Shown here piece after piece: positions 9,796-62,677 of a stretch of 64,000 bases of DNA. Each line of letters starts with the position of its first letter. Positions within the stretch are counted from its first letter, which is position 1. This stretch comes from Leptodontidium sp. MPI-SDFR-AT-0119 (lineage: Eukaryota > Ascomycota > Leotiomycetes > Helotiales > Leptodontidiaceae): contig JAHLEZ010000010.1 in the NCBI GenBank assembly GCA_020726505.1, positions 1,550,001 through 1,614,000 on the forward strand. Direction: 5' to 3'. The notes beneath the pieces were generated by a model. The model did no database searches. It saw nothing but the letters and a program-made list of their open reading frames with translations, and was not told where the DNA came from. Both the position numbers and the translations under genes were made by a program.

Positions 9796-11462
9796 TTATC
9801 CACTCCTAGAAACTTCGTTCCACAATCTAACTGTCCTATCCCCAGAACCAGACGCTAACTGTCCACCATCACGAGCTGAGAAAGCTATACTTGAGATGCT
9901 TCCACCATCAGAATGTAGTGTCTGGGCAACTACCCCCGTCTCAATGTCCCATAGCTTGAACGTACTGTCATCTCCGGATCCCGATGCGAGCCATTTGTGA
10001 CCTACATATACTACAGCTGTAATATGATCATCCTGACCCTGCAGTATCCGTGTAGTTGATCCCGTTCTAATATCCCAGACCTTGACGGTTCGATCCCAAG
10101 AACCCGAGGCAAAACTATCTCCTCGAATAGCGATGCTCCGAACACCGTCGTCGTGCCCCTTTAGCGTTCGAATTATGGACTTGGCCCTCACATCCCATAT
10201 GCTGATTGTTCCGTCTCCTGATCCTGATATTAATCGCCTACCATCATCCGTGATTGCTATGCTCCAAATGCCACCATGTTCTCCAGGAAGAGTCCTCACA
10301 GCTAATCCAGTTTCAATGTCCCAGATTCTGATTGTTCCGTCCCCAGATCCTGAAGCCAGCTCGCCACCATCAGTTGCGTATGCTAAGCCAGAGATGCGGT
10401 CTTTATGGTCATTCAGCTCCTGAAGAAGTGACCCTGAACTAGCGTCCCAAAACTTGATGGTAGCATCCGATGATGCTGATGCCAAAACGGTTTCATCGCC
10501 AACGAAAACGACATTTGTAGCATCGTCACTGTGACCGTGAAATGACTGTAAAGTGCGCTCCGTGTCAAGTTCCCAGAGCCGAAGGCTTCCATCCCACGAG
10601 CCTGATAGCAGCCGTCCCCCATTCTTTGAGAATGCCACACTCGAAACTCCGCTGCTATGGCTAGGCAAGGTTCGAAAAAGCTTGTACTGTCTGCTGCTAT
10701 TCCGCTCGTTTTGATGTGTAGGATTGCTTGGAAGGTTCACTTTAGTTCCTTCATAAAGCTGGGAATACCAATTCAATGTTTCGCTGGAAGGACCGTCTGC
10801 ATTTATGCGCATCGGTATGTGTACATTGTCCCAGTTGGTGTCAATTAGATGCTTTTGAACATCCCCACCAGGATAGGTAGTCGAAGAGTGCCCGCTTACA
10901 CTCTCAGCATAAGATTGAACGCGTTGCAGAGTTACCTCACTTTCCGGGCGAAGATGGCGAAGTTCACGGATCTCCAGCAAGATTTGGTCCACTTTGTCGC
11001 CAATTTCTCTGGATGTTTCCCTTGCTTTAGGTAAGTATACATCCAGTGAAACTTGAAACCGATCTGCTCGAGTTCTTACAGAGAGCTGAGATTCAAAATA
11101 ACGCCGATCATAGCTTTCTGTGCCTCTAATTGTCGACACAACGTGAGGACTTCTTTCTTCCCTGTGTATACCCAATACAGGCTCGGAAGTTGACTGAGTG
11201 ATGATCGCAGCAGCAGAATGTCGGTATTCCTGGCAGTGTGGTTGCAATCTTGTAGAACCTCGAAGAGTTCCCGAGATAAGGTATCAGGCATACGCTTGAG
11301 ATTTTGCAACTGTGTGAGGACTTTCAATAGACTATCGACTTCACGAAAGAGAGAGTCGATTTCGGTCCTCGCCTCGAAGAAATCCCCACGGACATCGTTG
11401 AGCTTCACGAGGGATCCGAGTAGCCCGACCAGCCCGGTGGCTATTGAGAATGGATCTGCCAT
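9796..11462 (-). CDS. WD40 beta-propeller protein with fungal STAND-type N-terminal domain
   Basis: Two exons (11462-11080 and 11008-9796) join in frame across a 71-bp GTAAGA...CCAG intron to about 531 residues. The first exon begins MADPFSIATG and is the helical N-terminal domain that ascomycete STAND/NLR-like proteins often carry. Residues from about 230 to the end contain seven WD40 repeats, each with a GS(G/W)D signature and a W-D or W-E end, enough for one closed propeller. There is no NACHT or NB-ARC domain between the two, so it looks like an NLR without its nucleotide-binding core, perhaps an adaptor. The splice choice is the only one I found that restores phase; the protein could also start inside the second frame, but the MADPFS start is characteristic. 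Confidence 0.75.
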
Positions 11463-20517: not shown

Positions 20518-20837
20518 ATATGGAGGTGCCAGAATGTCACCGCCTTTTGGCAGAACATCCAGGTGAGCTGCAACCAACCAAACCTACGTTTCCCTTATCG
20601 GAGTACCTCAGCTCTTTGCCGTGGGCACCGCATCTTGGAACCTTGATCTAGGTCGCTTTGGCTAACACAAATCATTAGTTTGAGTTCGAATACAAGCTAC
20701 CTTTTGGGTAAGTTGTGTCGATAGATTGACGGAAAAAAAAACCACTGATGCGATCCCTAAAATCAGATTTGTAGGCTGGGCTTACGCCATGCTAATCCTC
20801 TCTGTATCTTCATGGTGTGTCGAGCTCAAAATTACCA
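20518..20837 (+). repeat. Dispersed direct repeat, copy 1
   Basis: About 320 bp that recurs in the same orientation at 31627-31950 with only scattered differences (small indels such as an extra 9-bp GCTACC-type duplication in copy 2). It starts at ATATGGAGGT and ends at AAAATTACCA in both copies; flanking sequence then diverges. No reading frame, no clear terminal repeats, and no target-site duplication noticed. It might be a solo LTR, SINE or MITE-like unit. Confidence 0.85.
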
Positions 20838-22436
20838 CATAAGTCAGACTCAACTTTTTTTCTCGCTCCTTGAGCAACTGCCGTTTTAACCTGAGCCGAG
20901 GGTGAGCATTCCTGAGCATGCCTGAGCTCGGCCAGAGCAACCTGAGCACACGGCAGAGTCAGCCCGAGCATGTATTGAGAGGCCACCGAGCTCCTAAAGG
21001 AGCTCGTTCCGGCCCTTATTATGTGGGGATGTTGATGACTCGTGGATAGGTGGATATTCCCGGACATACTTTGTAGGCAAGTATGTTGATGTGATGAGGT
21101 GAGGTGAGGCGAGGCTACACAGCCTTCTGGAGATGTAGGGTTGTTACGAGCCCCTCGTGTAACAATTGGTCCCTTCAGTAGAGGTGACGGTTTATCTTGA
21201 GCATTGGCTTCTTTGGGAAATGCACTGGGAGGAAGTGAAGATATATTTTTGAGAGGAGGAAAAGGGGAATGTTATTCGTGGAGGAGGGTTCGGGGAGTTT
21301 TTTTTTTTTTCAACGGGCGCGATTTACCTTTTGGGAATGGTAGTTGTTGTCATTGTTTCACCAATTTCTAAGTTAAAGGGAAACATTGCTTTAACTTGAC
21401 CCTCAAAACATGTGTTGAAGAACATTTCACAATCGCAGAATCTCAAGTGCTCGAGTTGTACAATCTGCATTGGCGTGCGTAGTTTGTCGCGGTGATTGAT
21501 CGAAAGCAATCGTCCTACTGAGGTACTTCTACGACGCGTCGACCGTTGGCTATCGGTCAATATCGACGTTCCCTCTACTTTCTCATGATATACGAGCTTG
21601 AAATTCTAGTAGTGAGAGTGCCTATGACTAGGTTGGGGACAGGAGATGATATACGCTCGACGAGTTGTAGAACGGCACGCTCATATAAAGCACAGTACCT
21701 TTGGGGTACATCTCGAAGCGGTAGATGATATAGAGCGTAGGACAGATGGAGGCCATTTGAAACCCACGAGTAGTGGCTTTTTAATGCCTCATGGTGAAAA
21801 GTGGTTCCTAGCTTTTAATGAAGTAGAAAACCTCCCAGAGACAGTGTAGCTCCCTATTGCACTTTTGTTTCCTTGTATCAAGTAGTTTCCTTGTGTCGAA
21901 ATTTAAAGTTTTGCTGTACGAAGATGCGGGCGATGGAATCTTGCGGGAGCCGTGGTGATTCTGGCACATCTGTATGTTGGATTGGTGGACTTTTCAGGAC
22001 ACGACGGTAACTTGTTTGTTTCAAAAATTGCGAGCACTTGTGATTATCTTTCCTAATCGACTTTTATATTGGCACTGTAACCTGACTCACTTATAGAGAA
22101 TACTGCGCAGCATTTTCTCAGGATTTAATTGGTGTGGCCGAGGAAGTGTTCCCCCCAAAAATTTAAAAGGTTGTGGTCACGGAACGGAAGTAAAACCCAG
22201 AAAGTTCATAAATTCGTATTATCTCATTCCAGCCGCCCAGACCGTGCCACAGGTATTATTTAAAAACAAGCAAGCACCCCAATACTCTCGAAGAGATCCT
22301 CCATAACCGATTGCTCGAAACCTGTAATGATAAAAAATATATATATATAAAAGAAAGGAGAGTAGTACTCCATTTCCCCCGAGATTGACAAGGTCGAGTC
22401 CTCCCCCAATGCTCTTTGAAAGCTCCGGTAATTAGC
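20838..22436. other. Intergenic, partly AT-rich, no gene seen
   Basis: About 1.6 kb between repeat copy 1 and the stop codon of the TPR gene. It contains a T tract near 21,300 and an (AT)n tract near 22,340. Frames are short and unconvincing. Confidence 0.45.
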
Positions 22437-25400
22437 CTACTCATATTTCTCTGGTAGCGGAAATGGTAGATCCTTCTTATATAGCTCTTTGTATTCCTGT
22501 CGCCATTTGTTAGATTTATTTGTTGGGCGGGAATTTCTGTGCTCTGCTTTCCGAATCTCGTTTTGGTATTCTTTTAGAAGTTCACCAAAGAACTTTTCCT
22601 TCGCGGCTTCGACTTTCGCAATGCTCGCGTCTAAGAGCTGCTTCTTTTTCTCGGGGGTTGGCTTCGGTATTATCTTTTTTATTCCTTCGTTCCTGTATGT
22701 GAAATGTTCGACCTTCACAATAGTCATCGTGGATTCTAGTTCCTTTAATGTTCTCGCTACTAAATGATTAGCGTTTATGCTTGAAAATGGATTAGACGGG
22801 AAGTAGTTATACCGTTCGTTATATCTTCGTCTAAGAATGCACTCCAGATCGTAGTAGCGGTACGCCGTGTAATTTCAATAGCCTCCTCAAGGTCTTCTAA
22901 GGCCCCCATTCTCTCGTATCGATCTCTAAGTCGACTCCCGAGGTTGCTTAACCGCCCGGCTAGATCTGGGTGACCAGCTGGCGTCTCAGCCACGGCGCGC
23001 CGTCCAAGTTCAATAGCCTCCTCAAGGTCTTCCAAGGCCCCCATTCTCTCGTATCGATCTCTAAGTCGACTCCCGAGGTTGCTTAACCGCCCGGCCAGAT
23101 CTGGGTGACCAGCTGGCGTCTCAGCCACGGCGCGCCGTCTAAGTTCAATAGCCTCGTGAAGGTCTTCCAAGGCCCCCATTCTCTCGTATCGATCTCCAAG
23201 TCGACTCCCGAGGTTGCTTAACCGCCCGGCTAGATCTGGGTGACCAGCTGGCGTCTCAGCCACGGCGCGCCGTCCAAGTTCAATAGCCTCCTCAAGGTCT
23301 TCCAAGGCCCCCATTCTCTCGTATCGATCTCTAAGTCGACTCCCGAGGTTGCTTAACCGCCCGGCCAGATCTGGGTGACCAGCTGGCGTCTCAGCCACGG
23401 CGCGCCGTCTAAGTTCAATAGCCTCGTGAAGGTTTTCCAAGGCCCCCATTCTCTCGTATCGATCTCCAAGTCGACTCCCGAGGTTGCTTAACCGCCCGGC
23501 CAGATTTGGGTGACCAGCTGGAGTCGTAGCAACGGCGCGCCGTCCAAGTTCAATAGCCTCCTCAAGGTCTTCTAAGGCCCCCATTCTCTCGTATTGATCT
23601 CCAAGTCGACTCCCGAGGTTGCTTAACCGCCCGGCCAGATTTGGGTGACTAGCTAGCGTCTCAGCCACGGCACGCCGTCCAAGTTCAATAGCCTCGTGAA
23701 GGTCTTTGAAGGCCCCCATTCTCTTGTATCGATCTCCAAGTTGATTCCCGAGGTTGCTTAAGTATACGGCGAGATCTAGGTGACCAGCTGGCGTCTCAGC
23801 CACGGCGCGTCGTCCAAGTTTAATGGCCTCCTCAAGGTCTTCCAAGGCCCCCGTTGTTTGGTATCGATCTCCAAGTCGACCCCCGAGGTTGCTTAACCGC
23901 CCGGCTAGATCTGGGTGACCAGCTGGCGTCTCAGCCGCGGCGCGTCGTCCAAGTTTAATGGCCTCCTCAAGGTCTTCCAAGGCCCCCGTTGTTTGGTATC
24001 GATCTCCAAGTCGACTCCCGAGGTTGCTTAACCGCCCGGCCAGATCTGGGTGACCAGCTGGCGTCTCAGCCACGGCGCGTCGTCCAAGTTTAATGGCCTC
24101 CTCAAGGTCTTCTAAGGCCCCCATTCTCTTGTATCGATCTCTAAGTCGACTCCCGAGGTTGCTTAACCGCCCGGCCAGATTTGGGTGACTAGCTGGCGTC
24201 TCAGCCACGGCGCGCCGTCCAAGTTCAATAGCCTCGTGAAGGTCTTCGAAGGCCCCCATTCTCTTGTATCGATCTCCAAGTCGACTCCCGAGGTTGCTTA
24301 ACCGCCCGGCTAGATCTGGGTGACCAGCTGGCGTCGTAGCAACGGCGCGCCGTCCAAGTTCAATAGCCTCCTCAAGGTCTTCCAAGGCCCCCATTCTCTC
24401 GTATCGATCTCCAAGTCGACTCCCGAGGTTGCTTAACCGCCCGGCCAGATCTGGGTGACTAGCTGGCGTCTCAGCCACGGAGCGCCGTCCAAGTTCAATA
24501 GCCTCGTGAAGGTCTTCTATTTCTCTTGTTCTCACCGCTTGACTACTCAGAAGGCACCAATGCGTTAGCGGCCAAACCTTCTCCAGATGGAAGTATCGCC
24601 CAGTCCCAGTGCGAGCCTTGAGGCGAACTTGCCCGTCGGTAAAGTTGTGCCTCGAATAACCCAGTGCCCTGTTTCGGGACGAGTGCGATAAGGAATATAA
24701 CTCACTTTTCAGAGCTAAGTAAATCAACATCTTGCGACATGTACCTACGCTCGCTCATCCTCGCCGACATCGTGTCAAGAATTTCAAAGCGTCGAGCACG
24801 GTCCGGATGGCCATCAGTTGTTTCTGTCACCCATCCCTCCGCGTGTCGAATGGCTCGTTCAAGGTGTTCCATCGAGTCTATTCTTGTGAAGATAAGAAAA
24901 CAAGTATAAATCCATAATTCGATTTGAGCATCGCTTGTGGGGTCGTCTTGAAGCTCCGCGAAATTGAGTAGGTCTTCCTCGCTCATGTCGCGAAGTAAAG
25001 TAGCCATTTCTGGCTCAATGTGAAACATCTCCATATTCGTGGAGGCTTGATAGGCCGTCGTAGCTATTATTCGTAATAGGTCTTTCAAAGTGTCGTGCTC
25101 AGCATCAATTTGATCCCGAAAGTCAGTATATAATTCTTTCAACGGAAGAAATTTACCATTAGATTCATCAACGAGAACTCCATGAAGGTTCTGGATACGT
25201 CGTACAGCCACGATGGAGTGGTTCAACACTTCCTTAAATTCATCTGCGACAGATGGCATGGCGCGTCTAGCCTTCGAGATGACCAAATTTGCCTCCGTAA
25301 AATCAGGAAATAAAGAGCGGCAACTGGTGTTCTCATCCAAATCAAAGGCTTTCTGGGCCTTCTGGGTCTCCTCTGCCAGATTTTTCCATGACTCTGTAAC

Positions 25401-27226
25401 AGAGCCAGCCCATTCAGTCTGTGAATCGGAAGAGTCATGATCCGATGTAACGTTCGAGCCGGTACCCTCTCCACCAAACCCTGCCACCACAAGAGACTTC
25501 TCGGAGCCTCCAGCGCCATCTTTCCATGGAAGAGACATAAGTGCAAAAGAATGGATATGCTCTGCAATGTGATCTCGAAGGGGTTTATGAGCAGAATCTT
25601 TTCTATCTGACGAGCTGCATAGAGGGCAACTGGTAAATTCTAGAGGCATCTGATGCAGGCTTAGCTTAGCCAGAATGGGGAGCTGGGATTCCGTAAACGC
25701 GTCCGCGTGGTCCTCAACTGAATGCATGTGTTGCTCAAAATCTTCGATAACATCAAAGCTCTCTTCTAGGTCACAGATAGAACATACCCATTGTTGGGCA
25801 GCGTGATGGTCTTTCATATGTTTGATCCACTCCTCAGACGAAACATACAACTCATCTTCCGTTGGGCAGTCCGGAAAGACACAGATGTAGGGCTGTAGGT
25901 CTTCTTTGATATGTGCTCTACGGAGTTGGTCAGTGACTTCTAACCAAATTAAGCTTACAGCGACTGGAAAAACGTGCGTACATGGGATCCAAGTCCCTTA
26001 CGCTGGTTGTCACGAACTTCCAAAGAGATAGTTACGTACTTCCATCGCCTAGCAGTACTAGCAATATAATCCCTAGGAAGAGTATGCTGACAATATGGAC
26101 ACTGAAACGTCCGACGGTCAGGTTCTACTCGAGGTGGCTGCGGGTAATCAAGCGTGGCAGCCGTGGCAGACATTCGAGTGTCAACAGACATTGTGGCAGA
26201 GCCACGAATCTTCTTTAATGTAAATTTTGAGCCAAGGTCAGTTGCTGATTTCGAGGTGTCGTCGTTTCTGCTCTCCGGCTTCGGAGTGGAGGTCGATATT
26301 GGAGCTGTAGATGGCGCGTCAACAGGTTGTGGTACTTCTTTCTCGGGAATTGGTCGTTCTGGGGTAGCTGGAAACTGCTCTGGTGGCACTTGGAAGTCTG
26401 TGCGGTCTTCTTTTGCTCTATCGTAAGCATATGCGAATCGATTTCTCCTCCTAATATTGGCACGGATTAAACGCTCTTGTATTGAAGTCAATCGTGCTGG
26501 ATTCAGGAACCAAGCTCGTATGACGATCAAAATTGAAAGCGATATCCTCTTTTGAAATACCCCTTGTCTCAAACCGTCGACTAATCTTCTTTCTGGACCG
26601 TCTTGGTACAAGAGCACGACCTCCGTCAATCCATCCCTTAAAATCTGCAATTCCTGTGGAAGGGACTGGAAGTTGAGCGTTCTGTCGGCTTTTTGATGTC
26701 GAAAGCGAGATCCTGACTTTCGAATCAACACCGAAAGTCGCGCAAGCTGGTCTAGAGTCATTTCAACGTTTCTTTTGGATTCAGTCAAAAGAGTCCGACT
26801 CTCATCCTCATCCTCTGACAAATCTGACGGGGGGGACAGCGGCTCTATTGGCGAAGGAGATACAGAGGCAGAGTCTTCGAAATTCTGAGCCCCTATTTTT
26901 GCTGAATTCGAGTCCGGGTCGATGAGGGACACTTCGGAAACCACATCTGTACGCCTTTCAAGCTCTGAAAGTGCATCATGTAGTTCCTCTAACAGTCCCT
27001 GTATTACCTCGCAAACATCCGATCGATCTCTTAGTCGATATTCGAGAGATGCATGGCCTATCTTGGATGCCCCCAGCCCGGCAGCCCACAAATTCAAGTC
27101 AGCAAGGCGATTCTCGAACCATTCAACTTCTGTATCGTTCTCCATTATATGTCCGGTGGCACCCCTCATTAAGACATCACGGCACGATTGCGTCTTCTGA
27201 AATAATTGACCTTGAACATCGGCCAT
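22437..27226 (-). CDS. C2H2-TPR repeat protein, NLR-like architecture without a visible NACHT
   Basis: Four exons (27226-25959, 25917-24706, 24668-22813, 22759-22437) join in frame to about 1552 residues. The introns are short (41, 37 and 53 bp). The first has a CTGAC branch-like site and the last GCTAAT. The N-terminal 350 residues are the helical domain of ascomycete C2H2/STAND proteins. A cluster of C2H2-like units (FQCPYCQ..., VCSIC..., TSCPLC...) spans about residues 385-500. A helical linker is followed by twelve 45-residue TPR-type units and a partial thirteenth. The last 110 residues are Lys/Glu-rich. No Walker A motif is seen. It is divergent from the S8 protease gene (333 bp between ATGs). 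A role as recognition receptor for the adjacent protease-gasdermin pair is inference. The 37-bp intron is near the minimum size, so that junction is the least certain. Confidence 0.75.
22850..24515 (-). repeat. Tandem 135-bp coding repeats (TPR units)
   Basis: Twelve complete 135-bp units plus a partial one encode the TPR array of the surrounding gene. Neighbouring units are nearly identical at DNA level. A higher-order pattern alternates DLEEAIELG with DLHEAIELR units (about 270 bp), indicating recent duplication or gene conversion. Confidence 0.92.
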
Positions 27227-27559
27227 CTTCGACGAGGTTAAGCGTCCGAAGCTTGGATCCAGAGTCTTTGGGGCTTTCTTGGTTCTCTTTGGCTTAACGA
27301 AACCTTATTAAATACTTGATGATCGAACAAATGTAGAGGTCGGGCTTAAATGTATCTCAAGCATCAGATCCAGCACCGGGAAGAAGATGACGCTGTTGAA
27401 AGTGGGCGAAGCATGTCCCGTGATTTTTGGGCATCAGAAGTGCAGGCTACTTGCAGCCACCAACCCTGCTGATGCCTAACGGTTCACCGATCGCCGACAA
27501 CCTCCAACAACCCCATTTTGAATCACAATCAACTAGGCGGAACAGTCTAAGCATCCACG
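27227..27559. promoter_or_regulatory. Shared divergent promoter region of the TPR and protease genes
   Basis: 333 bp separate the head-to-head start codons at 27226 (minus) and 27560 (plus). Such spacing makes co-regulation plausible; no specific binding motif is identified. Confidence 0.5.
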
Positions 27560-30469
27560 ATGAGTTCCCCTGGCATCGCGGGCAGTCTCCGAGACTTGGT
27601 AGACCTAGCAATCAAAGCGACGGACAGACTGTTCGAATGCACCCGCTTGTGCCGAACAATCAAAGTCCAGACGGCTCGAAGCTTCTGCCGACACCTTGGA
27701 GCCGAACTCTTGTTGTTGAATGGCAGGTTAAATGACCTTTTAACCCCTTCCGAGGTGTCTACAAAGGAGATATCTGGGCTTCTCGGATATCTTGACAGAT
27801 TGTGCATTGTGAGTCTTATGAATGCCTCGAAAATTGTCATTCTGCAAATGTACCGTCCTTTGAGCGTAGTACTTGGCTGTAAAGAAACATTTGTCAAGGT
27901 TTAGGAGCGCTAATAGCAACAACCTGTGAATCATAATCTAATTTGACTCGCTAGTGGCCCTCCAAGTCTCAATCTGGTCAATATCCAAACCTAGAATTTC
28001 TCGTGTCTTCAGATGGCTTAGCTACTCCTATCGACCCCCAGGGCGCTATTACCAGGTTGGCATCCTCAACCCACAAGGATGCCGCGAGCCATCGAAAAGA
28101 ATTTCTCCGGGAATTCGAATACTTTTGTAAAGAGAAAGATCCTGGATTGTCTGAAATCCTGGACACGGTCCGGCAAATGGACCTCGAGTCAGAGGAGAAA
28201 AGGGACTATTCCTACCACGTGAGGGCGCTCTACCGTGCGCTTTATGCTTACCGCTCCTGCGATGGTACAAATCCTAGCACCGAAAAACTCACATTCAAAC
28301 TTCGCTTGAATGGATATGAAGAGGATGGCGAATTTTTGAAATTTAGTATGCTTTTTCTCCCGCACCCACACTCAGACAGCCTGCATTGCCCGATGGAGTG
28401 GCAAGACACCCAAGTGTGCGTATCTTTGATGCAACCACGGAAAGAAAGGTACATGCACCTCTCAAAGTAAGGCCGGTCAACTAACTTCTGCCAGACGAGT
28501 CATGTTTGACGACGATGAGCAAGATATAACCCCTTCTACACCAAGCAGTCCAGCTCTAGAAACGACGGAGTTTTGTAATCTCATCAGTAACCCTCAACAG
28601 TCGAGACTTTGTATGAAGGTCCACGGAGAGAGGCTTATCTTTGAAGAAGTTACCGATGTCATCGACACAGTCTTGAACCATCCAAGTGTCTCTCTTGCTT
28701 CCCTACTTTCAGAAGAGAGCCTGACCTACAGAATGAGATGCTGTCTTTCGATGATAATTGCAAGAGCAGTGTGGCAGTTCTACGATTCTGAATGGATGTT
28801 ACGAGACTGGACCAAAGACCAAGTGCATTTCCCCCTGTATCTGAGAACATACGGCAGCGAGGAGGTGAACATTTACGCTAGCAAACCTTTCCTTTCCGCT
28901 AGATTTGATACCTTATCCGAGCAGAAGCCAGTCAGGGGACGCATCCATAAATGCCCCAAAATCCTTGCGCTTGGTATCTTACTTCTGGAAATTGAGTTGG
29001 ACCTCAAGATCGAAACGAAGCGACTAAAAAAACATCTACGAGCTGATGGCCAGCCAACTCTAAATACCGACTACATTGCGGCAATGGATCTATACAACAA
29101 TGAACAGCTTTGGAGATACCGAAGTACCCAACCTGCTCACAAAGAAGTGATTGGGTATTGCCTGAAAGCGCCCAATTTCCGTGGCCTCACCGACGCATGC
29201 GAAGAACGCGAAGCTCTCTATAAGAACGTCGTGATTCCGCTAGAAAAGACCTTCAAGAATGCATGGCCCAATCTGGATGAGACACCCATCAAAGTTCCGG
29301 ATACAATGGGAGCCATGGAAGTAACCTTGCCAAGATTGGAACACCCCACCGAGAGACTGAATCAGCCAAGGCGTATTCGAACCCCTAAGCCATCGTTGAG
29401 TCCGTATGTACAGTGCAAATTCCTGTCACGGTAACTTACACAGCTAATGCCCTCTAGCGAAGCTGAAGCTGCCAAAGCATGGTTCGAAAGTATTGAAGAT
29501 ATGTGTTCCACTTTGCGCAGGAAGCGCACAACGCGCGAGCGTGTGAAAATTGCTATTCTCGATACAGGTTTGGACGAGAACCACCATCCATTTTGGGAAG
29601 TGAAAAAGGGCTATGAAGACTTCGCTGGAAATCAAAACCATCGGGGCATTGATGATACGGGCCACGGGACAAATGGCTTTCATCTCATTTCGAAGATAAT
29701 GGACGACGAAGTTGACATTTTCGTTGCTCGAGTCTTTGAAGGCGAGAAGGCAACATCAGAGACTCCAACTCTGATGGCAAAAGTAAGCACTCGACTCTTT
29801 CCTCCTTCAAAAAGCTGCTAATTGTCTCAGGCTATTAGACATGCCATAGACAAGTGGCAGGTCGACATCATAACTATGTCCTCTGGCTTTGAGCACGAAT
29901 ACGGCGACTTGCGACAAGCCGTTCTTGAGGCCAACGCTGCAAACACCCTTATCTTTGCCGCTGCATCTAACTGGGGCAACAGAGGCTACATTGCTTTTCC
30001 TGCACGGATGCACGGAAATGTGATGTGCATATTCTCCGCCACCGCTGATGGGAAGCGATCGAGTTTCAACCCTGCAAGATCAGGAAAATCGACTACCAAT
30101 TTTGCTGTGCTTGGCGAGGAGGTGGAGAAAGTTCAGATTGATATGGATCGTCACCCTGGATACGATTCAGGAACATCAATTGCGACGTTTATTGCGGCGG
30201 CAATCGCAGCTCTAGTCATCGACTTCTCTCGACAACAAGACAGTAAGGAAATCATCTTGGATCCAACTAGGCTGAAAACGGTGGCTGGGATGAAGGCAAT
30301 ATTTGCTGAGATGGCGGATGGTGGCTATGACGGAGGATATCAGTTTCTGGTACCCCAGAGAGTGCTGGAGTGCTCGAAACTGGATGTAAAGAAGCGTGGC
30401 CTTGTGGCCACGCGCAAGTATATTGCCGATACGGTGAGCAGAGCGCTCGATAGAGCCAATACAGGTTGA
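27560..30469 (+). CDS. Subtilisin-like (S8) serine protease with helical and DUF7580-like N-terminal regions
   Basis: Five exons, best model 27560-27898, 27955-28448, 28495-29403, 29458-29782, 29831-30469, give about 901 residues. Using the stronger GTGAGT donor at 27809 shortens exon 1 by 30 codons. The first 110 residues are helical. The middle (about 120-580) resembles the DUF7580 domain that accompanies fungal death-related proteins. The C-terminal S8 domain has all expected residues: Asp in AILDTGLD, His in DTGHGTNG, the oxyanion Asn in AASNWGN and Ser in GTSIAT. No signal peptide or propeptide is seen, so it should be intracellular. It is convergent with a gasdermin-like gene (38 bp between stops). 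This arrangement is known for Podospora het-Q2/het-Q1, where the protease cleaves the gasdermin. That this protein cleaves its neighbour is inference. Confidence 0.85.
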
Positions 30470-30507
30470 ATCACTCAAAATATATGAAAAATTGATAGAC
30501 ATTTGCA

Positions 30508-31407
30508 CTACTTCTGCGTTAGTGCCTCCGTACCAGCGTTTGGAACCACAAAGATCCCCCCTTCCTCGTCATTATATAGCGTCACATCATGATCCAAATC
30601 CACACCTTCAGCAGCCAACTCATCTTCCACGCTCACTTCTTGCGCATCTCCACCTCCCTTGCTAAACGTAGCCCCTTTCGTTGTCGTCTCCATCTTCCAA
30701 TCATCATCACCATCAAATAATCCCTTCGAAATCCTCGTCAGTCTCAACGCCCAGACAAAATCGGTAGCCTTCTTCCAGCTCTCCTTCGTACTTCTCACAA
30801 CCGCTGTCTCTGTAGAAGCGCCAATGTCCGCCGCGCCTGGGACCTTCACGCCACCGGCAGCATGCAAACCACTATTCACTTTCTCTTCGGCACTCACGAT
30901 GCGCGCCCCCCTTGCGATCACTATACCGGAGATCATATACAGCGTCCAAAATTTCATCCCCAGGACTTTCTTGCTGTCCAGGAATCTCTGCACATCCTCG
31001 GCCTCGAGCGAATCATCGATATATGCCCGCCGCGGCTGCACAATTGCCGTGTCCAAGCGGTCAAACTCCCAGTAATTTGTCACGCTCTCCTTGAATGCGG
31101 CGCCAACGCAGGTGTTCACGTCAACGGGCAGGACACCCGTGGGTACACTAGCTTTGACACTGGCAGATGTGCTCGAGCTCGAATCGATGGTCCATTTCAG
31201 TCCCCATTTGGAGGTTTCGTAGACGCGCATGGTTGCGGTGTAAGGCTCGGGCCCCAGGGAGCTGTTGATGACTTGGTCCAAATGCTTGAGATCGGGGATC
31301 AGGTGACCGAGACAGATTGCGCCAGCGGCGCGGGCTTGGGTGCCGGCAGTGGGTGTTAAGGGGGGAGGATAGTGGGTTTGTCGGAGGACAAACCAGCATT
31401 TGTCCAT
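30508..31407 (-). CDS. Candidate fungal gasdermin-like pore-forming cell-death protein
   Basis: A single exon of 299 codons; the ATG at 31407 (MDKCW) is preferred because the 41 upstream in-frame codons look non-coding. The N-terminal pattern (CWFVLRQ, then a GAICLGHLIPDLKHLD block at about residues 30-45) and the later MISGIVIARGA segment resemble fungal gasdermin-like proteins of the rcd-1/het-Q1 kind, and the length fits that family. The C-terminal 45 residues are acidic and low in hydrophobics, as expected of a short autoinhibitory tail removed by a protease. If right, the cleaved N-terminal part would oligomerise in the plasma membrane and kill the cell. No transmembrane helix or signal peptide is evident. 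Identification is by remembered pattern, not alignment. Position next to an S8 protease raises my confidence. Confidence 0.65.
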   Translation of the reverse strand: MDKCWFVLRQTHYPPPLTPTAGTQARAAGAICLGHLIPDLKHLDQVINSSLGPEPYTATMRVYETSKWGLKWTIDSSSSTSASVKASVPTGVLPVDVNTCVGAAFKESVTNYWEFDRLDTAIVQPRRAYIDDSLEAEDVQRFLDSKKVLGMKFWTLYMISGIVIARGARIVSAEEKVNSGLHAAGGVKVPGAADIGASTETAVVRSTKESWKKATDFVWALRLTRISKGLFDGDDDWKMETTTKGATFSKGGGDAQEVSVEDELAAEGVDLDHDVTLYNDEEGGIFVVPNAGTEALTQK

Positions 31408-39521: not shown

Positions 39522-42187
39522 ATGGATAATTCGAAGAGTATCATTGCTGATGCCTTCAACAAGTTGAGCGATACCATATCTGAAGAACATGCCCACGAAT
39601 TTGCTTCCACGAAGCTCGAGGATGTTTGGAAGACTGTTCGAGACATCGACAGTTCCCAGCGGCAACGACAATCAGCTCAGAATCTCGGCCGGATTAAACC
39701 GTTACTGGAGGGCATTGAGAAGTATGCTAAAGTCATAGAAGTCTTGTGCAATGGAACCCCATATCTTCCATATGTTTGGGTTTGTTTTCCCCGTCACTTA
39801 CAAGGCGGGCTTGCTAAATTTATCAGGCTCCGATCAAGCTCATGGTTCAGGTAACACAAGATTCCCATACCCCAGTAAAATCACATCTGACAACCCTGAA
39901 TAGTTTGCAAGCCAGCATTACGAAGTCTTCGAATCGCTACTCTCTGCCTACGCCGACATTGGAGCAGTGCTTCCGAGATTCGATCGGTACGAGAAGGCTT
40001 TCAGCGAAATTCCCAGCTTCAGGATTGCTCTTGCAACTATGTACAAGAATATACTCTACTTTCATCGGAAAGCATACAAGCTCTTGTCCCGAAAGGGTAA
40101 GTCTTACCGTGTCTAACTATCACAGTTTTCTCCCCTTTATTTTTGATATTCTAACATGTGGCTAGCTTGGCATGTCTTGTTCCTCTCTCTCTGGAGAGAC
40201 TACAAAAAGCGATTCTCCGGTATTATCGAAGGACTGAAAGAACAACAAGTCTTCCTCGACGCAGAAGCAATGTCTATTCACATGTCCGAATCAAAAGATG
40301 CGCGTTCACAGATGCAGAAAGACATTCAAGAAAGTCAGAAGAAGTCGCTGGCCATACTTGAACAGTCCGAGACCGAAGCCAGGATTTCCAGGCTACAGCA
40401 TTCTATCGCATGGCTCTCTGTGGACGACAAGACTCAGGAGGACAATTATGAGAAGATCTCCAATCAAAGGCACGATGAAACGTGCCTCTGGATTGCAAAG
40501 AATGATCAATTCGTTTCCTGGAGGAGAGACGATGGGAAGAACCCAGTGCTTTGGATTAGCGGAAAGCCTGGTGCAGGTCAGTAAAAGATTACATCGTATT
40601 CAATTCATATCTAAATCAGCACAGGGAAAAGCGTCATATGTTCTTACATACTTCAACTGCTAGGACAGCCTTCAGGCCAAAACCACACATGTTACTACTT
40701 TTGCAACAGCCAAGAGGCTGGCAACATATGCAGCCAGATTCTGCGCACTGTCGCTCTTCAGCTCCTAAGAAGGAATGTGGATCTGGCTTCACTGATCGCA
40801 AATCAATACGTGTATCAAGGGACCAGCTGCGGCATGGCTCAGTTGAGAACTCTGCTGCCTCAAATGCTCGAGACCATTGATTCGACGAGGATCATTATCG
40901 ATGGCCTTGATGAGTGTTCGGTGGAAACGCAAATGTCGGTTCTCAAAGATCTCGAGCGACTTCTGGGGAAGGATGTCCACTGCAAGATCATAATCTCAAG
41001 TCGGCGAGACGTCAAAATTGCCGAGAAGCTCTCAGGAAAAACTCAAATACGGCTTGATGAGCTCCAGGAGGTGGAATCCGATATACGCTTGTACGTCAAG
41101 TACAAGGTTAGCTCTATTAAGACTACCGATCCGGATCTTCGCACGAAAATAGAGTCAATCTTGGTTGAGAAGGCAAACGGTATATGCTTTCTTGAAAACT
41201 CTTGCGAAACTCACTGACTGCTTTAGGAATGTTTCTTTGGGTCCAACTCGTAGTTGATGAGCTGCGGGGGTGTGGCAGCGACTGGGAACTTGAAGACAGG
41301 GCGAAGAGTCTTCCAAGGGGACTTAAGAGAGCGTATGTTCTACCCTGTCCAAGGTTCACACGTTACTCATCTCTACAGATATGGTCGCATTATTGACCGC
41401 ATAACGGACGAAAGCCATTCGAATTACCCTCGCTCGCTAGCCATCAGAATTCTGGAATGGATCGCATGCTCCTACCGACCCCTGAAGACCTTTGAACTAC
41501 TTGACGGCATTGTGTTCAAGGTCGGCTGCACAGAGCTCAACAATCGCACAAAAATGCGGAAGTCTGTGCTAGATTCCTGCCGCCCGCTCATTGAAGAGGG
41601 TCCTTCGAACACTGTTGACTTTGTACATTTTTCCGCAAAGGAGTAGCTACACCTGCTTGACTGTAAATGTTCCACGGCTGATCTCTGCTAATAGATACGT
41701 CCTGGACGAAGAGTACAAGCAGGCGACAGCTTTCATCAGTCGTGAGACGGCGAACCTCAACATCTCTTTCTCGTGTGTGGCATATCTGAATACTAGTCTT
41801 GGTCTTCTTCCTAGCAAATCCACGTCCCAAACGCGCGGGGTTTTGGTCATTTCCGGCTTCCACGGATTACAACTATACGCCAATCAGTTCTTCACCAAAC
41901 ACCTTCAGGCCTACTTCACCCCACTCGCGGCCTCAAGAGGCCGGCCGACACCTGAACTCGTCATGGAGCTCCAAAAACTCTTACTCTTCTCAAAGAACCT
42001 CGATGATACGGTCTCGGCGACCTCATCAAGAGTCAATTGGGACATGCTATCTGAATACCCCCAGGTCGTGTCATTTTTGCAACGACTCATTGCCTTCAGG
42101 GAAGGCTTGAAACAAGAGGAAGTCTCCAGCAATATGTTGAAGTCTCCCGAAGGTTGGATATTCCTCAATGTGATTGGTCCTGTCTAA
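39522..42187 (+). CDS. NACHT-domain STAND protein, ending at an in-frame TAA
   Basis: Eight exons splice in frame from the ATG at 39522; a 24-bp exon 2 near 39,829 encodes APIKLMVQ. The helical N-terminal domain (about residues 1-270) precedes a NACHT domain with Walker A GKPGAGKS (split by an intron near 40,580), Walker B IIIDGLDEC and sensor IIISSRRD. A winged-helix-like region follows, with VHFSAKEY, and an intron with a TAATAG acceptor near 41,692 restores the frame after an apparent TAG. Translation stops at TAA 42185-42187, but the same frame continues without another stop into the C2H2 tail such proteins normally carry. So it is either truncated by one nonsense mutation or ends naturally here; I favour truncation. 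The family senses cues and triggers incompatibility or defence in fungi. Confidence 0.82.
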
Positions 42188-47100: not shown

Positions 47101-47718
47101 TCACACAGCGTCAATCCTACACACATCCCTGAACTCGGGATATTTATCACCAAACGCCTTCTTCATACGCATATTGCCAATATCACCCAGATGCTTCTCC
47201 AACTGATCAACATGCGGCCATTATCGAAGATTAGCGCCTTCATAGGATCGAGGGGGAAGTTGACGGTGAAATTCGAGGAGTAGTCGTGCAGGAACTCAGG
47301 TGTGTCGTATTTATCCTGGTTCTCGATGACGCGGTCGCGGAACTTGCCCCAAGGTGGGAGGTCCATCCACGCGGAGTGTGGGATCATGAGTTGTAAAGGG
47401 CGAGGAGTTTGCCATTCATGTAGATTGTGGTAGCTTTCGTAGGAGAGCGAGATTTGCCATTGTACGAGGCGATACATGCACATGAATGAGGCGAGTTCCT
47501 CGGGGATCATTGGAAAGCCGCGGGTGTTGAGGACGGCAGCGTATTGTCTTTTCCGCGGGGCCGGGCTGGTTGAAGAGAATGTGTATGGAGGGGAAGGATG
47601 GTCCTACCAATTCCTCTCGGGAGGCCTCATTTGTTGCAAAGAGGTGGCGTTGAGCATGGATGACGCTGTGCATTAGCTGGTCTAGATATGTGACGGGTGA
47701 CTTCAACTTGGTAGACAT
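47101..47718 (-). pseudogene. 3' end of a bZIP-type (DUF3425) transcription-factor gene, frameshifted
   Basis: The C-terminal DUF3425 domain found in fungal bZIP factors is readable in three frame segments. The first has TYLDQLMHSVIHAQRHLFAT. The second has LASFMCMYRLVQWQIS and IPHSAWMDLPPWGKFRDR. The third has DQLEKHLGDIGN down to the stop at 47101. Frame changes lie near 47,555 and 47,200. The bZIP DNA-binding half is absent; upstream lies the broken end of the HET-NACHT gene. A non-functional fragment. Confidence 0.65.
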
Positions 47719-49127
47719 CTGCCAGGCATAGATTTGCGGCTGGTTTTGCCAACATGTTGAGCTATAGGGTTGCTTGCTTTCTGCGTCGCTCTGTCGAGGT
47801 CCTTCTCGATGCTCGGCCAGTTGCGACTAGAAACAATCCACTTGGTCCGAGGAGATATAGACGAAGTTTGTATGATGAGGTCCAACAATTTTGGCAAATC
47901 CATTTCGCATTCGTCGAGCGCGTCGACGATTAAGCACGTATTATTCAGTTTCGGGTCTTGTAGAATGTTGGCAAAGATTTCGGATAGAGCAACCCAGGTA
48001 TTTGAATCCTCAAAGAGCGCTTTGCCGGCCTGATCATACTTCTTCCGTACATGTGAGATAAGAGACGGCTGTTCATTGACAAGCAGATAGATCAGACCTC
48101 GTAGCACGGCCGTGGCGTTGTTAATTCGAGATTCAGTCGCTTGACAGAAGAAGTATGATAGAAGAGTTGACTTCGGTATAGACTTCTTCAGCTCGTTGAT
48201 AATGCCGCAGAGCAACATTGTCTTGCCCTTGCCGGGATCTCCTCTGATCCATAGCAGCCAAGTCTGCGGGTTGTTCCGCCATTGTTGGAAATCGGAGGTC
48301 TTTAGGACCCAGTTATATGAGCCCTCTAGCAAGCCACCCTTGGTGTCCTCAATGCGCGTCTTGTCATCGCGGGGATCGCTGAGGCGTAGGTCTTGGAGGC
48401 ACTTGTTAAACTTGTCGATTTCCTCTTCGAGCCGTTTGAATGCATTCGCCATCCCTTCGCCATAACGGAGGGGCATTTGGACGTCAAAAATGCCGAGTAA
48501 CGAGTAAGCTCTGTCTTCTTCGACTGTTGTCTGGCGGGGTTGAATCCATGAAAATCGCTCTTTATCGTTAAACTGTGACAAATAGGCTCCTTGAAGTGCC
48601 GACTTAGGAATGCCTGTGATCTCGTGAATTTGCTGCTCTAGAGAACTCTTACTACCAATCCGCTTGGATTCCCGGCAGAAGAATTCTACTGATGTTGGAG
48701 CAAGAAGCTCTTGAAGGGTCCAGCCTCGAGTGAACCATCTGGATTTCCGAAATGCCGATTCCCAGGCTAGTTCGTCAGTGTTGACGGCAGTTCTGGACAC
48801 ATCTGACAGATAGACATAGCATTTAGTCGACATGCGGTACCAGCGAAACATAGAGTTGATAGCTTCTGTAAGCTCAGCGCTGTTTGATTTATCGATGCAG
48901 CAGGTGTCCACCCAAAAGTATTGCAAGCTATCACGCTTAGCCTGTTCTGCGCAGAACCGTATCTTCTCGTAACCAGCCTTCTTCGTGCCGGTTCCATTCT
49001 GCAGATCTTCAAAGGTGACCTCCTCCCCTTCCCATGTGTGCGAAAGTATAGCATACTCGGGTATGGCGCTCTTAAAGAACTCGGCCAAGCTGAAATCGCC
49101 ATCGCCGTTATAGTGTAACAGACGCAT
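47703..49127 (-). CDS. HET-NACHT protein, truncated after the NACHT domain
   Basis: A single exon of 474 codons. Residues about 1-220 are a HET domain with AILSHTW, YFWVDTCCIDKSN, SRWFTRGWTLQELLAP and AYSLLGIFDV. Residues about 285-440 are a NACHT domain with Walker A GDPGKGKT and Walker B CLIVDALDE. The normal continuation (WD40, ankyrin or TPR repeats) is missing. After SSRNWPSIEKDL the last 30 codons look foreign and end against the bZIP fragment, so a rearrangement removed the sensor half. HET proteins trigger heterokaryon-incompatibility cell death; without repeats this one would lack its recognition module. It may be transcribed, but I consider it a broken gene with an intact frame. Its 5' flank is homologous to that of the HET pseudogene at 59.5-62.7 kb. 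Confidence 0.78.
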   Translation of the reverse strand: MRLLHYNGDGDFSLAEFFKSAIPEYAILSHTWEGEEVTFEDLQNGTGTKKAGYEKIRFCAEQAKRDSLQYFWVDTCCIDKSNSAELTEAINSMFRWYRMSTKCYVYLSDVSRTAVNTDELAWESAFRKSRWFTRGWTLQELLAPTSVEFFCRESKRIGSKSSLEQQIHEITGIPKSALQGAYLSQFNDKERFSWIQPRQTTVEEDRAYSLLGIFDVQMPLRYGEGMANAFKRLEEEIDKFNKCLQDLRLSDPRDDKTRIEDTKGGLLEGSYNWVLKTSDFQQWRNNPQTWLLWIRGDPGKGKTMLLCGIINELKKSIPKSTLLSYFFCQATESRINNATAVLRGLIYLLVNEQPSLISHVRKKYDQAGKALFEDSNTWVALSEIFANILQDPKLNNTCLIVDALDECEMDLPKLLDLIIQTSSISPRTKWIVSSRNWPSIEKDLDRATQKASNPIAQHVGKTSRKSMPGRCLPS

Positions 49128-49784
49128 TATTCGACTAGGTTCGAGGATCGCAGGAGGAAGGGTTCTCGGTAGCTGTTGAGCCGTCGAGATAGCATAGATG
49201 TGGAGTGAGGTGAAGGTTGGAGAAGGCGTCGCGTTGGGGCTGGCGCACCCAGCTCAGCGGCAGCCTCGCGGCAATGACATCGTCGAGCACCACACAGCGC
49301 CGGAAGACAGGCTTGCCGCAAAATCTCGGGAAATCATAGGGGATAGGATGTAGGATATTCGAAGCCACTCTCAACTGAGCATGGCGTGTCATGTCGCTGA
49401 GGGGGGAGCTGAAGGAATTGCACAGTGGATGACAGAAAACAATAAGATCAGTATCTGGTGTCTACGTTAAGCTTTAACTTTTGCCATATTCGAATTATGT
49501 AGCCTTACCTTTAAGGCTGTCATTTATTTTCAATTGCGGTCCGTCATGGAAATGCGGGGAGAGCGCGGGGGTCGTTGTACTTTCGTACCCTAAGCAAACC
49601 TCGTTAGTCGCTTCCATTCGAGGTACTGCCCCCCGCGGCGACGTTGAATGAATTTGCGGTCTACAGCAGCTATAACGACGATGATAGTATCTAACTTGGT
49701 AAGAAGGGTTTAAAGATCAGATAAGACCTTTTTATAACTATCAGAAGTAATTAAAGTTTAATAGCGGAGCTACAATAAAATAAC
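49128..49784 (-). promoter_or_regulatory. HET-gene 5' flank shared with the 62.7-63.3 kb region
   Basis: From the ATG at 49127 outward, the sequence resembles the region upstream of the ATG at 62677: a TTCGACTAGGTTCGAGGATC segment next to the start, a GAGCATGG-type segment near 49,380, then a CGAGGTACT-containing part near 49,620. The two HET genes therefore duplicated together with their promoters. Confidence 0.6.
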
Positions 49785-50290: not shown

Positions 50291-50645
50291 TAAGACCTAA
50301 GGCTAGAAGTTTGAGAATGGATGGATGATCGAGGGGTTTCTGGGTCCAGATTTCTTTTTCTATCATTTAATTCCTAGATTTCTTTAGCTTCCCTCTCAGC
50401 AACAAGAATACATTATTTCCAATCGAGATTGACTTCGCCAGTGAGTCTGAGCGACTGAGCCGGTCTTGCGCGCTTCCAGTGTACGACGATGCTATTGCCA
50501 CGAGGCTGCCGCCAAGCTGAGTGCGCCAGCCGCAACCTGAGCTGAAGTCTTTCACCTTTGCATCTATGTCAACTGGACGGCTCAACTACTGCCGAGAACT
50601 CTCCCTCCTGCGATCCTCGACTCGTCGACTCGAAGCCAGTTGAAA

Positions 50646-53600
50646 ATGCGTTTGCTGTGCGACAAAGATGGCGACTTCAGCCTGACCGAGTTCGCTGAGA
50701 ATGACATACCGAAATTTGCAATACTTTCACACAGATGGGGAGTGGAGGAGGTCACACATAACGATCTGTTAGACGGCACGGGCAAGAGCAAGGCTGGCTA
50801 TGGAAAGATACAGTTCTGCGGAGAGCAGGCGAGGCGTGACGGTTTGCAATACTTCTGGGTGGACACCTGCTGTATCGATAAATCTAATGCCGTGGAGTAT
50901 CAACACGCGATCAACTCGATGTTTCGCTGGTACCGGGATGCGACTAGGTGCTACGTTTACCTGCCAGATGTTTCGCGACCTCGCTCTGTTCTGACCGACA
51001 ATACCAACGAATCTTGGGAATCGTCATTTCGAAAAAGCGAATGGTTCAGACGAGGCTGGACTCTACAAGAGCTTATCGCGCCGGCATCAGTCGACTTCTT
51101 CTGCAAAGATCGGGAGTTATTAGGCAATAAGGTCTCCTTAGAACGGCATATCTGCGAAGTAACAGGCATTCCAGCCAGAGCCCTTCGAGGAAGCCGTTTG
51201 TCTGACTTCACGGTTGCTGAGCGATTTTCGTGGACGGAATGCCGTGAGACAACCTATAAAGAAGACAAGGCATATTCACTGCTAGGAATTTTTGACGTTT
51301 ACATGCCACTCATCTACGGCGAGGGGAAGGACAGGGCGTTGGCGCGACTTCGAGAGGAGATTGATAAGGTCTCGAGAGGTACATCTTGCTCTTTTGTCAT
51401 CAAATGAAGGAAGCTGCTAACTCTATCAGGATCTAACCGCGAGGACTTCTCAGTCACCTTCAGCCTCTCCGATGCTTTCGACGTCGAACACTTCGTGGCC
51501 CGGGAAGATGAGCTCTCGAGAATACACAAGGCACTCAGAGGCGATGGCTCCCGTCGAGCAGTTGTTCTGCAAGGGCTAGGGGGAATCGGGAAGACACAGC
51601 TTAGTATTGCATATGCAAAGCGACACAGGGACGATTACTCGGCAATATTTTGGCTGAACATCAAAGACGAGGATTCTGTGAAGCAGAGCTTTGCTACGCT
51701 AGCTAAGCAGATATCAAGAGAACACCCGTCGGCCATCCCGGTTAGCAATCAAGAAACGAACCAAAACCTGGACGAAGTGGTTGAGTCTGTCAAGGCGTGG
51801 CTGAGTCTGCCTAACAACACACGATGGCTGATGATTTACGACAACTACGATACCCCTAAAGTATCTGGCGGAACGGATCCTGCGGCTGTGGATATCAGAA
51901 AGTTCCTTCCCGAGTCATATCAAGGGTCAGTTATTATTACAACGCGGTCCTCGGAAGTCAGAATAGGTCATTCTATCCAGATTCGAAAGCTGAGAAATGT
52001 GGATGACGGTCTGGAGATTCTGTCAACCGTATCAGGACGAGAAGGGCTAGCAATAAGTGAGGATGTTCTAGATCTGATATTACGTCTCTAATGAACGCTA
52101 GATCCCGATGCTGTGGAGCTTGCTAAGGAATTAGATGGATTTCCACTTGCACTTGCTACTGCTGGAGCATACCTTAATCAAACAGCAAGAAGTTTCTCAG
52201 ACTATCTTCGTTTGTATAAGGAGTCATGGGCGAGGCTTATGGAGACAAGTCCTGAGCTGAGCTCGTATGAGGATCGAACACTGTATTCGACATGGCGGAT
52301 TTCTTTTGACAATGTCAGACAGCGAAACCCCCTCTCCGCAAACCTTCTTCGCCTATGGGCATATTTTGACAACCAGGATCTTTGGCTCGAGCTTTTGCAA
52401 CATGACGAATGCGACAGTCCTGAATGGCTACGAGAGCTCACCAAAGATGAATTGAGCTTCGACGGTGCGGTACGAGCCTTGAGCAACTATGGGCTAGTAG
52501 AGGTAGCCACCTCTTCACAGGAATCGACCGAATCTAAAGGGTACAACATTCATGGATGTGTCCACTCCTGGACTATTCATGCTCTGAACCAAGAATGGGA
52601 TTACGATTTAGCTAGCTTAGCTGTGAAATTTGTGGGAGCACATGTCCCAGAAGAGACGGATGATCAGCCGTGGACAATAAAACGTCGACTTCTCCCTCAT
52701 GCAGCGAGATGCTCATATATGTTTGCAAATAGCCTGGTAGTAGACGATGAGCTAGCAGATTATTGCCATAACGTAGGATACCTCTACGCCGACCAGGGCA
52801 AGCTCGTCGAGGCCGAGCGGATGTACCAGCGGGCGCTGCAAGGCAGGGAGAAGGCATGGGGTCTGGACCACACGTCGACGCTCGACACGGTCAATAACCT
52901 GGGGAACCTCTACAAAAACCAAGGCAAGCTGGACGAGGCCGAGCGGACGTACCAGCGGGCGCTGCAAGGCTACGAGAAGGCATGGGGTCTAGACCACACG
53001 TCGACGCTCGGCACGATCAACAACCTGGGGACCCTCTACAAAAACCAAGGTAAGCTGGACGAGGCCGAGCGGATGTACCAGCGGGCGCTACAAGGCTACG
53101 AGAAGGCATGGGGTCCGGAGCACACGTCAACGCTTGACACAGTCAATAACCTGGGGACCCTTTACAAAAACCAAGGCAAGCTGGACGAGGCCGAGCGGAT
53201 GTACCAGCGGGCGCTGCAAGGCAGGGAGAAGGCATGGGGTCCGGAGCACACGTCGACGCTCGGCACGGTCAACAACCTGGGGACCCTCTACGCCGACCAA
53301 GGCAAGCTGGACGAGGCCGAGCGGATGTACCAGCGGGCGCTGCAAGGCTACGAGAAGGCATGGGGTCTAGACCACACGTCGACGCTCGACACGGTCAACA
53401 ACCTGGGGACCCTCTACGCCGACCAAGGCAAGCTGGACGAGGCCGAGCGGACGTACCAGCGGGCGCTGCAAGGCAGGGAGAAGGCATGGGGTCCGGAGCA
53501 CACGTCGACGCTCGACACAGTCAACAACCTGGCAGCCCTCTACGCCGACCAAGGCAAGCTGGACGAGGCCGAGCGGATGTACCAGCGGGCGCTGCAAGGC

Positions 53601-54332
53601 AGGGAGAAGGCATGGGGTCTGGACCACACGTCGACGCTCGACACAGTCAACAACCTGGGGAACCTCTACGCTAGTCAGGGCAAGCTAGACGAGGCCGAGC
53701 GGATGTACCAGCGGGCGCTGCAAGGTAAGAAGAAGGCATGGGGTCTAGACCACACGTCGACGCTCTCTACGGTTAATAACCTGGGGACCCTTTACGTCTA
53801 CCAAGGCAAGCTGGACGAGGCCGAGCGGATGTACCAGCGGGCGCTACAAGGCTATGAGAAGGCATGGGGTCTAGACCACACGTCGATGCTCTCCACGGTC
53901 AACAACCTGGGGAACCTCTACGTCGACCAGGGCAAGCTCGACTTGGCCGAGCAGATGTACCAGCGGGCGCTGCAAGGCTACGAGAAGGCGATCGGCCCAG
54001 ATAATATCATCACTTATATCCCAGCGCTAAACATAATTTGGGGTTTCGGCTATCTCTTTGAACTTCAAGCCGATATAACGAAGGCCAGAATTATGTTTGC
54101 CAAAGCGTTATGTGGGTACGAGCAAGTTTTCGGACCCGAACATGCTAAATCCAAGACTTTGCGAGACAAACTACATGTTTTAGATGCCATGGTTGAGAAT
54201 AAGGCCCCAGTAGAAATAGAAGAGCATGCAGAGAATGTGCCAACAGGATCGGCGCCTGGTATTAACAAGTCTCCCTCAACATCAAAGCGGCACAAGCTGT
54301 TTCGAAAGCTTGGCCTGAGGTCCCGTACTTGA
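50646..54332 (+). CDS. HET-NB-ARC-TPR protein (intact NLR-like incompatibility protein)
   Basis: Three exons (50646-51378, 51430-52056, 52102-54332) join in frame to about 1196 residues. A HET domain (about 1-235) has AILSHRW, YFWVDTCCIDKSN, RRGWTLQELIAP and SLLGIFDVYMPL. An NB-ARC domain (about 265-470) has the P-loop GLGGIGKTQL, kinase-2 WLMIYDNYD, SVIITTRS and GFPLAL. A winged-helix-like region follows. From about residue 700 come ten nearly identical 42-residue TPR units and a diverged eleventh. A basic tail ends the protein. The combination is that of fungal NLR-like receptors: TPRs bind the cue, NB-ARC oligomerises, HET signals cell death. No broken frame or missing key residue is seen, so it is probably functional. 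It is the intact counterpart of the inverted pseudogene at 59.5-62.7 kb. Confidence 0.9.
52750..54000 (+). repeat. Tandem 126-bp coding repeats (TPR units)
   Basis: Ten 126-bp units encode the NNLG-LY-DQGKLDEAERMYQ pattern with near-identical DNA. Variation concentrates at a few positions (KN/AD/AS/VY after LY; GREK/GYEK; GLDH/GPEH), the profile of repeats under concerted evolution and selection. Confidence 0.93.
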
Positions 54333-62500: not shown

Positions 62501-62677
62501 ACAGAACTGTATCTTGTTATAGCCAGCCTTGCTCTTGCCAGTGATATTCATCAGATCTGCAAATGTGACCTCCTCCGCTCCCCATCTGTGCGAAAGTATA
62601 GCATACTTTGGTATATCGCTCTCAAAGAACTCGGTGAGGCTGAGGTCGCCATCGTGGTTAAACCGTAGCAGACGCAT
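59534..62677 (-). pseudogene. HET-NB-ARC-TPR paralog inactivated by nonsense mutations
   Basis: Same domain order and the same two intron positions as the gene at 50646-54332, but on the opposite strand. It has the HET domain from the ATG at 62677, NB-ARC with GLGGIGKTQL and WLMIYDNYD, then six 42-residue TPR units, a diverged one, and a similar basic tail ending at 59534. Four stops interrupt it: TAG 61608-61606 (CAG in the paralog), TAA 61111-61109 (CAA), TGA 60604-60602 (CGA) and TAG 60595-60593 (CCT). The first two are CpA-to-TpA changes. Synonymous C-to-T differences lie right beside them. The first stop falls early in the NB-ARC, so only a HET-plus-P-loop fragment could be made. HET domains alone can be toxic to the cell, so expression would matter. 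Confidence 0.88.

Follow-up and report, generated by a model that had tools for sequence, protein, structure and literature searches.

We have characterized a convergent gene pair in Leptodontidium sp. MPI-SDFR-AT-0119 (Leotiomycetes, Helotiales) that we read, with a probability of roughly 0.86, as a two-gene cell-death switch in which a tail-inhibited gasdermin would be activated by a neighboring subtilase. The pair lies in a stretch of 64,000 nucleotides (contig JAHLEZ010000010.1, positions 1,550,001 to 1,614,000), hereafter the window. In the predicted mechanism, the gasdermin (299 residues) would be kept inactive by its short acidic C-terminal tail, and the subtilase, probably cytosolic, would sense a signal via its N-terminal part, a helical region followed by the kinase-like DUF7580 domain. 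Once active, the subtilase would cut the gasdermin linker, most likely after F248, and the released N-terminal part (27 kDa) would oligomerize in the plasma membrane and kill the hyphal cell. Observed are gasdermin homology, the predicted fold, an intact catalytic triad, adjacency and recurrent pairing of the genes, and a conserved linker motif and tail. The original prediction of a protease-activated pair is thus supported as far as sequence can tell; that cleavage, pore formation and cell death occur, where the cut falls, that the tail inhibits and that the N-terminal part acts as sensor are what we infer.

Both genes are intact, and the coordinates and convergent arrangement first proposed for them, with 38 bp between their ends (30469 and 30508), agree with our exon models. 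The protease model is identical (100% identity, 100% length, both 871 residues) to a public protein of the same strain (P0114; BKA61DRAFT_607018). For the gasdermin, 53 rows were picked by hand from 113 relatives (alignment A1); these are mostly full-length, some full-length relatives were omitted, and the window translation replaces the database protein P0001. The start MDKCWF is backed by this alignment, in which 25 of the 53 sequences open exactly with M[D/E]KCWF and most others start no more than about three residues from that position. P0001, which represents the same frame, has 323 residues and fits an ATG 24 codons upstream.

The gasdermin-like reading of the 299-codon gene held up. Searched against PDB sequences, its product matched RCD-1-1 at E=6.2e-48 over residues 1-249 and RCD-1-2 at E=1.1e-37, and structure prediction followed by structure comparison returned the gasdermin fold, with 45% identity to RCD-1-1 across 177 structurally aligned residues. 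It is thus homologous to a proven fungal gasdermin (fGSDM) over the pore-forming domain and has the predicted fold of one; a non-gasdermin fold with no profile match, which had been named beforehand as evidence to the contrary, is not what was found. The resemblance could in principle be accidental and the protein no gasdermin at all, and the Pfam search, which returned no family for it at E up to 1, is in keeping with this, but against such an RCD-1 match and the fold match that alternative has a practically negligible probability. It was rejected on the PDB sequence search. By homology and predicted fold, we class the 299-residue product as a fungal gasdermin, its resemblance being far beyond chance. 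No close relative of RCD-1 other than the window copy was found in the genome (self match 1e-201, next match E=8e-9).

The protease was compared with 52 relatives, drawn from 7995 scored candidates sharing the most words. Twenty-eight of these, the window protein included, were picked by hand for DUF7580, most of them also carrying S8, and aligned (A2). The complete catalytic set originally claimed was borne out: D586, H620 and S775 are conserved (Table 1), and the oxyanion N706 is kept in all 28 sequences. The lone exception at Ser775 is P0125, whose predicted end diverges exactly at that place. The protease thus has the S8 domain with intact triad that defines HET-Q2-like (Q2L) proteases and, 38 bp away in convergent orientation, the gasdermin gene sought within 10 kb of them. 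The claim that it looks intracellular fared less well: intracellular subtilases rank first and second among the PDB matches (1.8e-38 and 4.1e-38), but the secreted subtilisin BPN' follows at almost the same value (9e-38). One relative from Truncatella angustata (P0127), with 1514 residues, carries S8, NB-ARC and TPR in a precomputed domain list and, judged by these domains, is a NOD-like receptor (NLR)-type version of the window protease.

Recurrent pairing was assessed in the 77 Mb Leptodontidium genome by six-frame searches. Because such searches take no account of introns and scoring was confined to the best candidates, all counts are lower bounds: at least 63 S8 matches, merging into at least 47 loci; at least 27 DUF7580 matches, 25 of them above the cut-off; and, with the window gasdermin as query, at least eight gasdermin genes. 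An S8 match lies 276-3838 bp from seven of the eight gasdermins (six of seven when the window pair is excluded). Given 47 merged S8 loci, uniform placement would provide a chance S8 neighbor for about 0.6% of gasdermins, and the pairing is therefore not due to chance. A DUF7580-S8 gene adjoins five of the eight. From the protease side, DUF7580 and S8 matches occur within 2.5 kb of each other at seven places, six of which have a gasdermin neighbor, that on contig C67 being found via the profile only; five of these pairs are convergent and one is tandem. Protease relatives consistently lacking a gasdermin neighbor, the situation that the original prediction had named as speaking against it, are thus not seen in this genome. 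Two further gasdermins (L047 and L067) were found only beside S8/DUF7580 genes and were kept out of the seven in eight because searching in such places is biased. In other fungi, protease and gasdermin relatives have consecutive locus tags on same-sized contigs in Endocarpon (GJ744_004803/004804), Oidiodendron (OIDMADRAFT_170236/170237) and Neocosmospora (Neosp_002445/002446), and they lie on same-sized contigs in Thelonectria.

The acidic tail, also part of the original prediction, comprises the 51 residues beyond F248 (5.29 kDa, pI 4.05), with 13 Asp and Glu against two Lys and Arg. In the predicted model, the predicted local distance difference test (pLDDT) score falls below 50 at residues 244-253 and averages about 80 at residues 261-290; the GATF motif that ends in F248 sits inside this low-confidence linker. 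The F248 column holds Phe in 45/53 aligned gasdermins and Phe or Tyr in 50/53, and at least 25 residues follow it in 48/53. Two ends are short or odd, with 2 residues (P0021, a record marked partial) and 22 residues (P0036) after the column. Tail and linker are thus present and conserved, and the tail would inhibit and the linker would be cut. In Podospora anserina, HET-Q2 is reported to cut HET-Q1 with F238 as the P1 residue and to remove 40 residues, or about 5 kDa (PMC12881547; PMC10989679). By analogy, we favor F248 as the site of the activating cut, with somewhat better than even confidence.

Several observations weigh against activation of the gasdermin by its neighbor. No gasdermin lies in the 8 kb examined (L068, C69:1508500-1516499) with one DUF7580-S8 gene (C69:1510392), possibly an orphan protease. 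Conversely, within 10 kb of a gasdermin on contig C25 (L066, 3954-4763) neither S8 nor DUF7580 is matched, and the five frames beside or including it match no protease family in Pfam. Only five of the 52 protease relatives, window included, have a gasdermin relative on a same-sized contig, which is an undercount because the gasdermin search reached mainly the RCD-1 clade. The other 47 have no such partner in the gasdermin list, which holds mainly the RCD-1 group and carries no genomic context, and consistent pairing is therefore demonstrated for the Leptodontidium genome only. For three species (Fusarium albosuccineum, Stachybotrys elegans and Hyaloscypha bicolor), the contig of the listed protease differs in size from that of the listed gasdermin. 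The paralogous gasdermins of the genome lack the exact GATF (e.g. KGALY, KGAFL, KGAMF, KGGVF); they retain KG and a hydrophobic pair. Finally, co-expressed alleles rather than a known protease activate RCD-1, the closest relative of solved structure (PMC12881547).

This last point would fit an RCD-1-like action, in which killing would be set off once hyphal fusion brings two divergent alleles together, the neighboring protease being incidental. RCD-1-1 and RCD-1-2 of Neurospora crassa are indeed the best solved relatives of the window gasdermin and share its group and fold. However, the window protein has a conserved motif and a tail that are absent from the three Neurospora rows, all of which have 7 residues past the F248 column against 51 here, and the S8 neighbor recurs across the Leptodontidium genome and in three other fungi; we hold this alternative to be improbable. 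The adjacent protease might instead be aimed at a different substrate, such as other gasdermins of the cell. Protease specificity cannot be read from sequence, and the genome offers 47 merged S8 loci, eight gasdermins plus two found only near S8 genes, and one DUF7580-S8 gene with no gasdermin in the 8 kb examined. Set against this are the recurrent, tight and mostly convergent adjacency and the activity of clustered pairs in published work (PMC10197012, PMC12881547), which make a different substrate quite improbable. Activation of the gasdermin by its own neighbor is the reading we retain.

The guess of a DUF7580-like region in the protease proved right (Table 1). Six predicted helices (residues 10-33, 37-59, 68-82, 94-101, 111-120 and 124-142; AlphaFold2) all precede it. 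A DUF7580 profile (A3) was built from 12 of the genome's 27 matches and searched against the PDB at E up to 10. It returned 43 sequences; the 42 protein kinases among them comprise 26 constructs of IRAK4 (best E=3.3e-4), 10 Nek7, 3 PERK, 2 MLKL and 1 other kinase. Homology to protein kinases is therefore detectable, yet weak and redundant, 26/42 being IRAK4 constructs. None of the Pfam kinase models was matched by the DUF7580-containing sequences searched. As we read the AlphaFold2 model, the order of strands and helices in residues 197-504 is compatible with a kinase fold; the 50 matches listed by a structure comparison of the whole protease (VIA-align) all concern the subtilase domain and are thus uninformative either way on the fold of residues 164-502. 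These residues contain no HRD, DFG, GxGxxG or [AV]xK string, and across the 28 aligned sequences HRD occurs in two and DFG in one. D352 of the window protease stands at the presumed place of the HRD Asp, where a weak alignment has Asp in 4/28 and Glu in 13/28. Because the motif strings are absent and this place is mostly not Asp, the DUF7580 region is probably not an active kinase.

HeLo was not matched in the window protease (Pfam, E up to 1), nor in the 28 aligned rows at 0.1. Elsewhere in the genome, a single open frame (L019, 1084-2280) carries the C-terminal part of HeLo (E=4.4e-7) together with DUF7580 in an MLKL-like layout; it has no S8 match within 2.5 kb. The six helices and this frame together suggest a shared MLKL-like sensing module. 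We tentatively propose, at rather less than even odds, that DUF7580 is a pseudokinase and that the protease is a hybrid receptor, whose MLKL-like half (helical bundle plus pseudokinase) would drive a pyroptosis-type protease and gasdermin. If so, necroptosis-type sensing and gasdermin execution would be joined in one two-gene unit and, given the HeLo-DUF7580 frame, one sensing module would be common to two death pathways.

Table 1. Features of the protease-gasdermin pair, in window coordinates
Feature	Position	Strand	Details
HET-Q2-like (Q2L) subtilase gene	27560..30469	+	5 exons, 871 aa; exon model identical to public P0114 throughout
Protease exons	27560-27808, 27955-28448, 28495-29403, 29458-29782, 29831-30469	+	
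Protease introns	27809-27954, 28449-28494, 29404-29457, 29783-29830	+	
N-terminal predicted helical region, residues 10-142	27587..28131 (intron 1 interrupts)	+	AlphaFold2 model
DUF7580, residues 164-502	28195..29257 (introns inside)	+	Pfam E=1.9e-21; divergent kinase-like domain
Peptidase_S8, residues 579-794	29540..30235 (intron inside)	+	Pfam E=1.8e-13
Catalytic Asp586	29561..29563	+	D in 28/28
Catalytic His620	29663..29665	+	H in 28/28
Catalytic Ser775	30176..30178	+	S in 27/28
Fungal gasdermin gene	31407..30508	-	299 codons, single exon, no intron
F248 of conserved GATF motif, proposed P1 residue	30664..30666	-	Conservation, low-pLDDT linker, analogy to HET-Q1 F238
C-terminal acidic tail, residues 249-299	30511..30663	-	Presumed inhibitory

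Judged from domain-bearing frames, the right end of the window is dense in genes of the incompatibility or NOD-like receptor type. These are HET plus NACHT/NPHP3_N (47703-49253, minus strand), successive frames with HET, NB-ARC and TPR (50541-54332, plus strand), and HET and TPR frames (59534-62800, minus strand). Further receptor-like pieces are a WD40 repeat frame (9796-11283, minus strand) and a NACHT/NPHP3_N frame (40615-41217, plus strand). Directly left of the protease gene (22775-27304, minus strand) lie weak C2H2 zinc-finger frames and then TPR_10 repeats, and the four frames scanned at 20813-27304 had no match to a CHAT protease.

Our finding adds a complete, intact gasdermin/protease pair from one helotialean fungus, with an exact cut-site prediction. 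The two-gene arrangement of gasdermin and S8 protease is already published as common, and the DUF7580 part is a modest novel angle. Should DUF7580 prove to be a pseudokinase sensor, the signals perceived by fungal gasdermin proteases could be studied tractably with these genes; a 2025 review (PMC12881547) describes the activating stimuli of such sensors as a major open question. The Fig. 6 legend of that review refers to fusions between protease domains and "other predicted kinase-like domains", which may have the same architecture as the DUF7580-S8 proteins. In the open-licence papers searched, the term DUF7580 was not found, nor was Leptodontidium together with gasdermin.

Among known systems, MLKL consists of a four-helix bundle and a pseudokinase (PMC12881547), and in the window protease, similarly, a kinase-like domain that lacks recognizable kinase motifs comes after a helical region; the weak PDB matches returned with the DUF7580 profile also include MLKL (E=0.53 and 1.3). 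In contrast to MLKL, the module is here fused to a protease, the executor is a separate gasdermin, and HeLo is not matched. HET-Q1/HET-Q2 of P. anserina, with HET-Q1 compared through its description in reviews, likewise involve a short-tailed gasdermin, there cut at Phe by a subtilisin-like protease. The two Podospora genes are idiomorphs, distinct genes that occupy a single locus (PMC12881547), whereas both genes occur in one genome in Leptodontidium, and HET-Q2 has 388 residues (PMC10989679) compared with 871 in the window protease, which carries the helical region and DUF7580 in addition. As the original prediction stated, fungal gasdermin genes often lie beside protease genes: about 63% share a cluster with an S8 protease, and about 80% with a protease of one kind or another (PMC10197012). 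The gasdermin-clustered Q2L proteases of that work are S8 proteases encoded within 10 kb of a gasdermin gene and have a multidomain receptor architecture, as is the case here, and the window pair shows no categorical difference from them.
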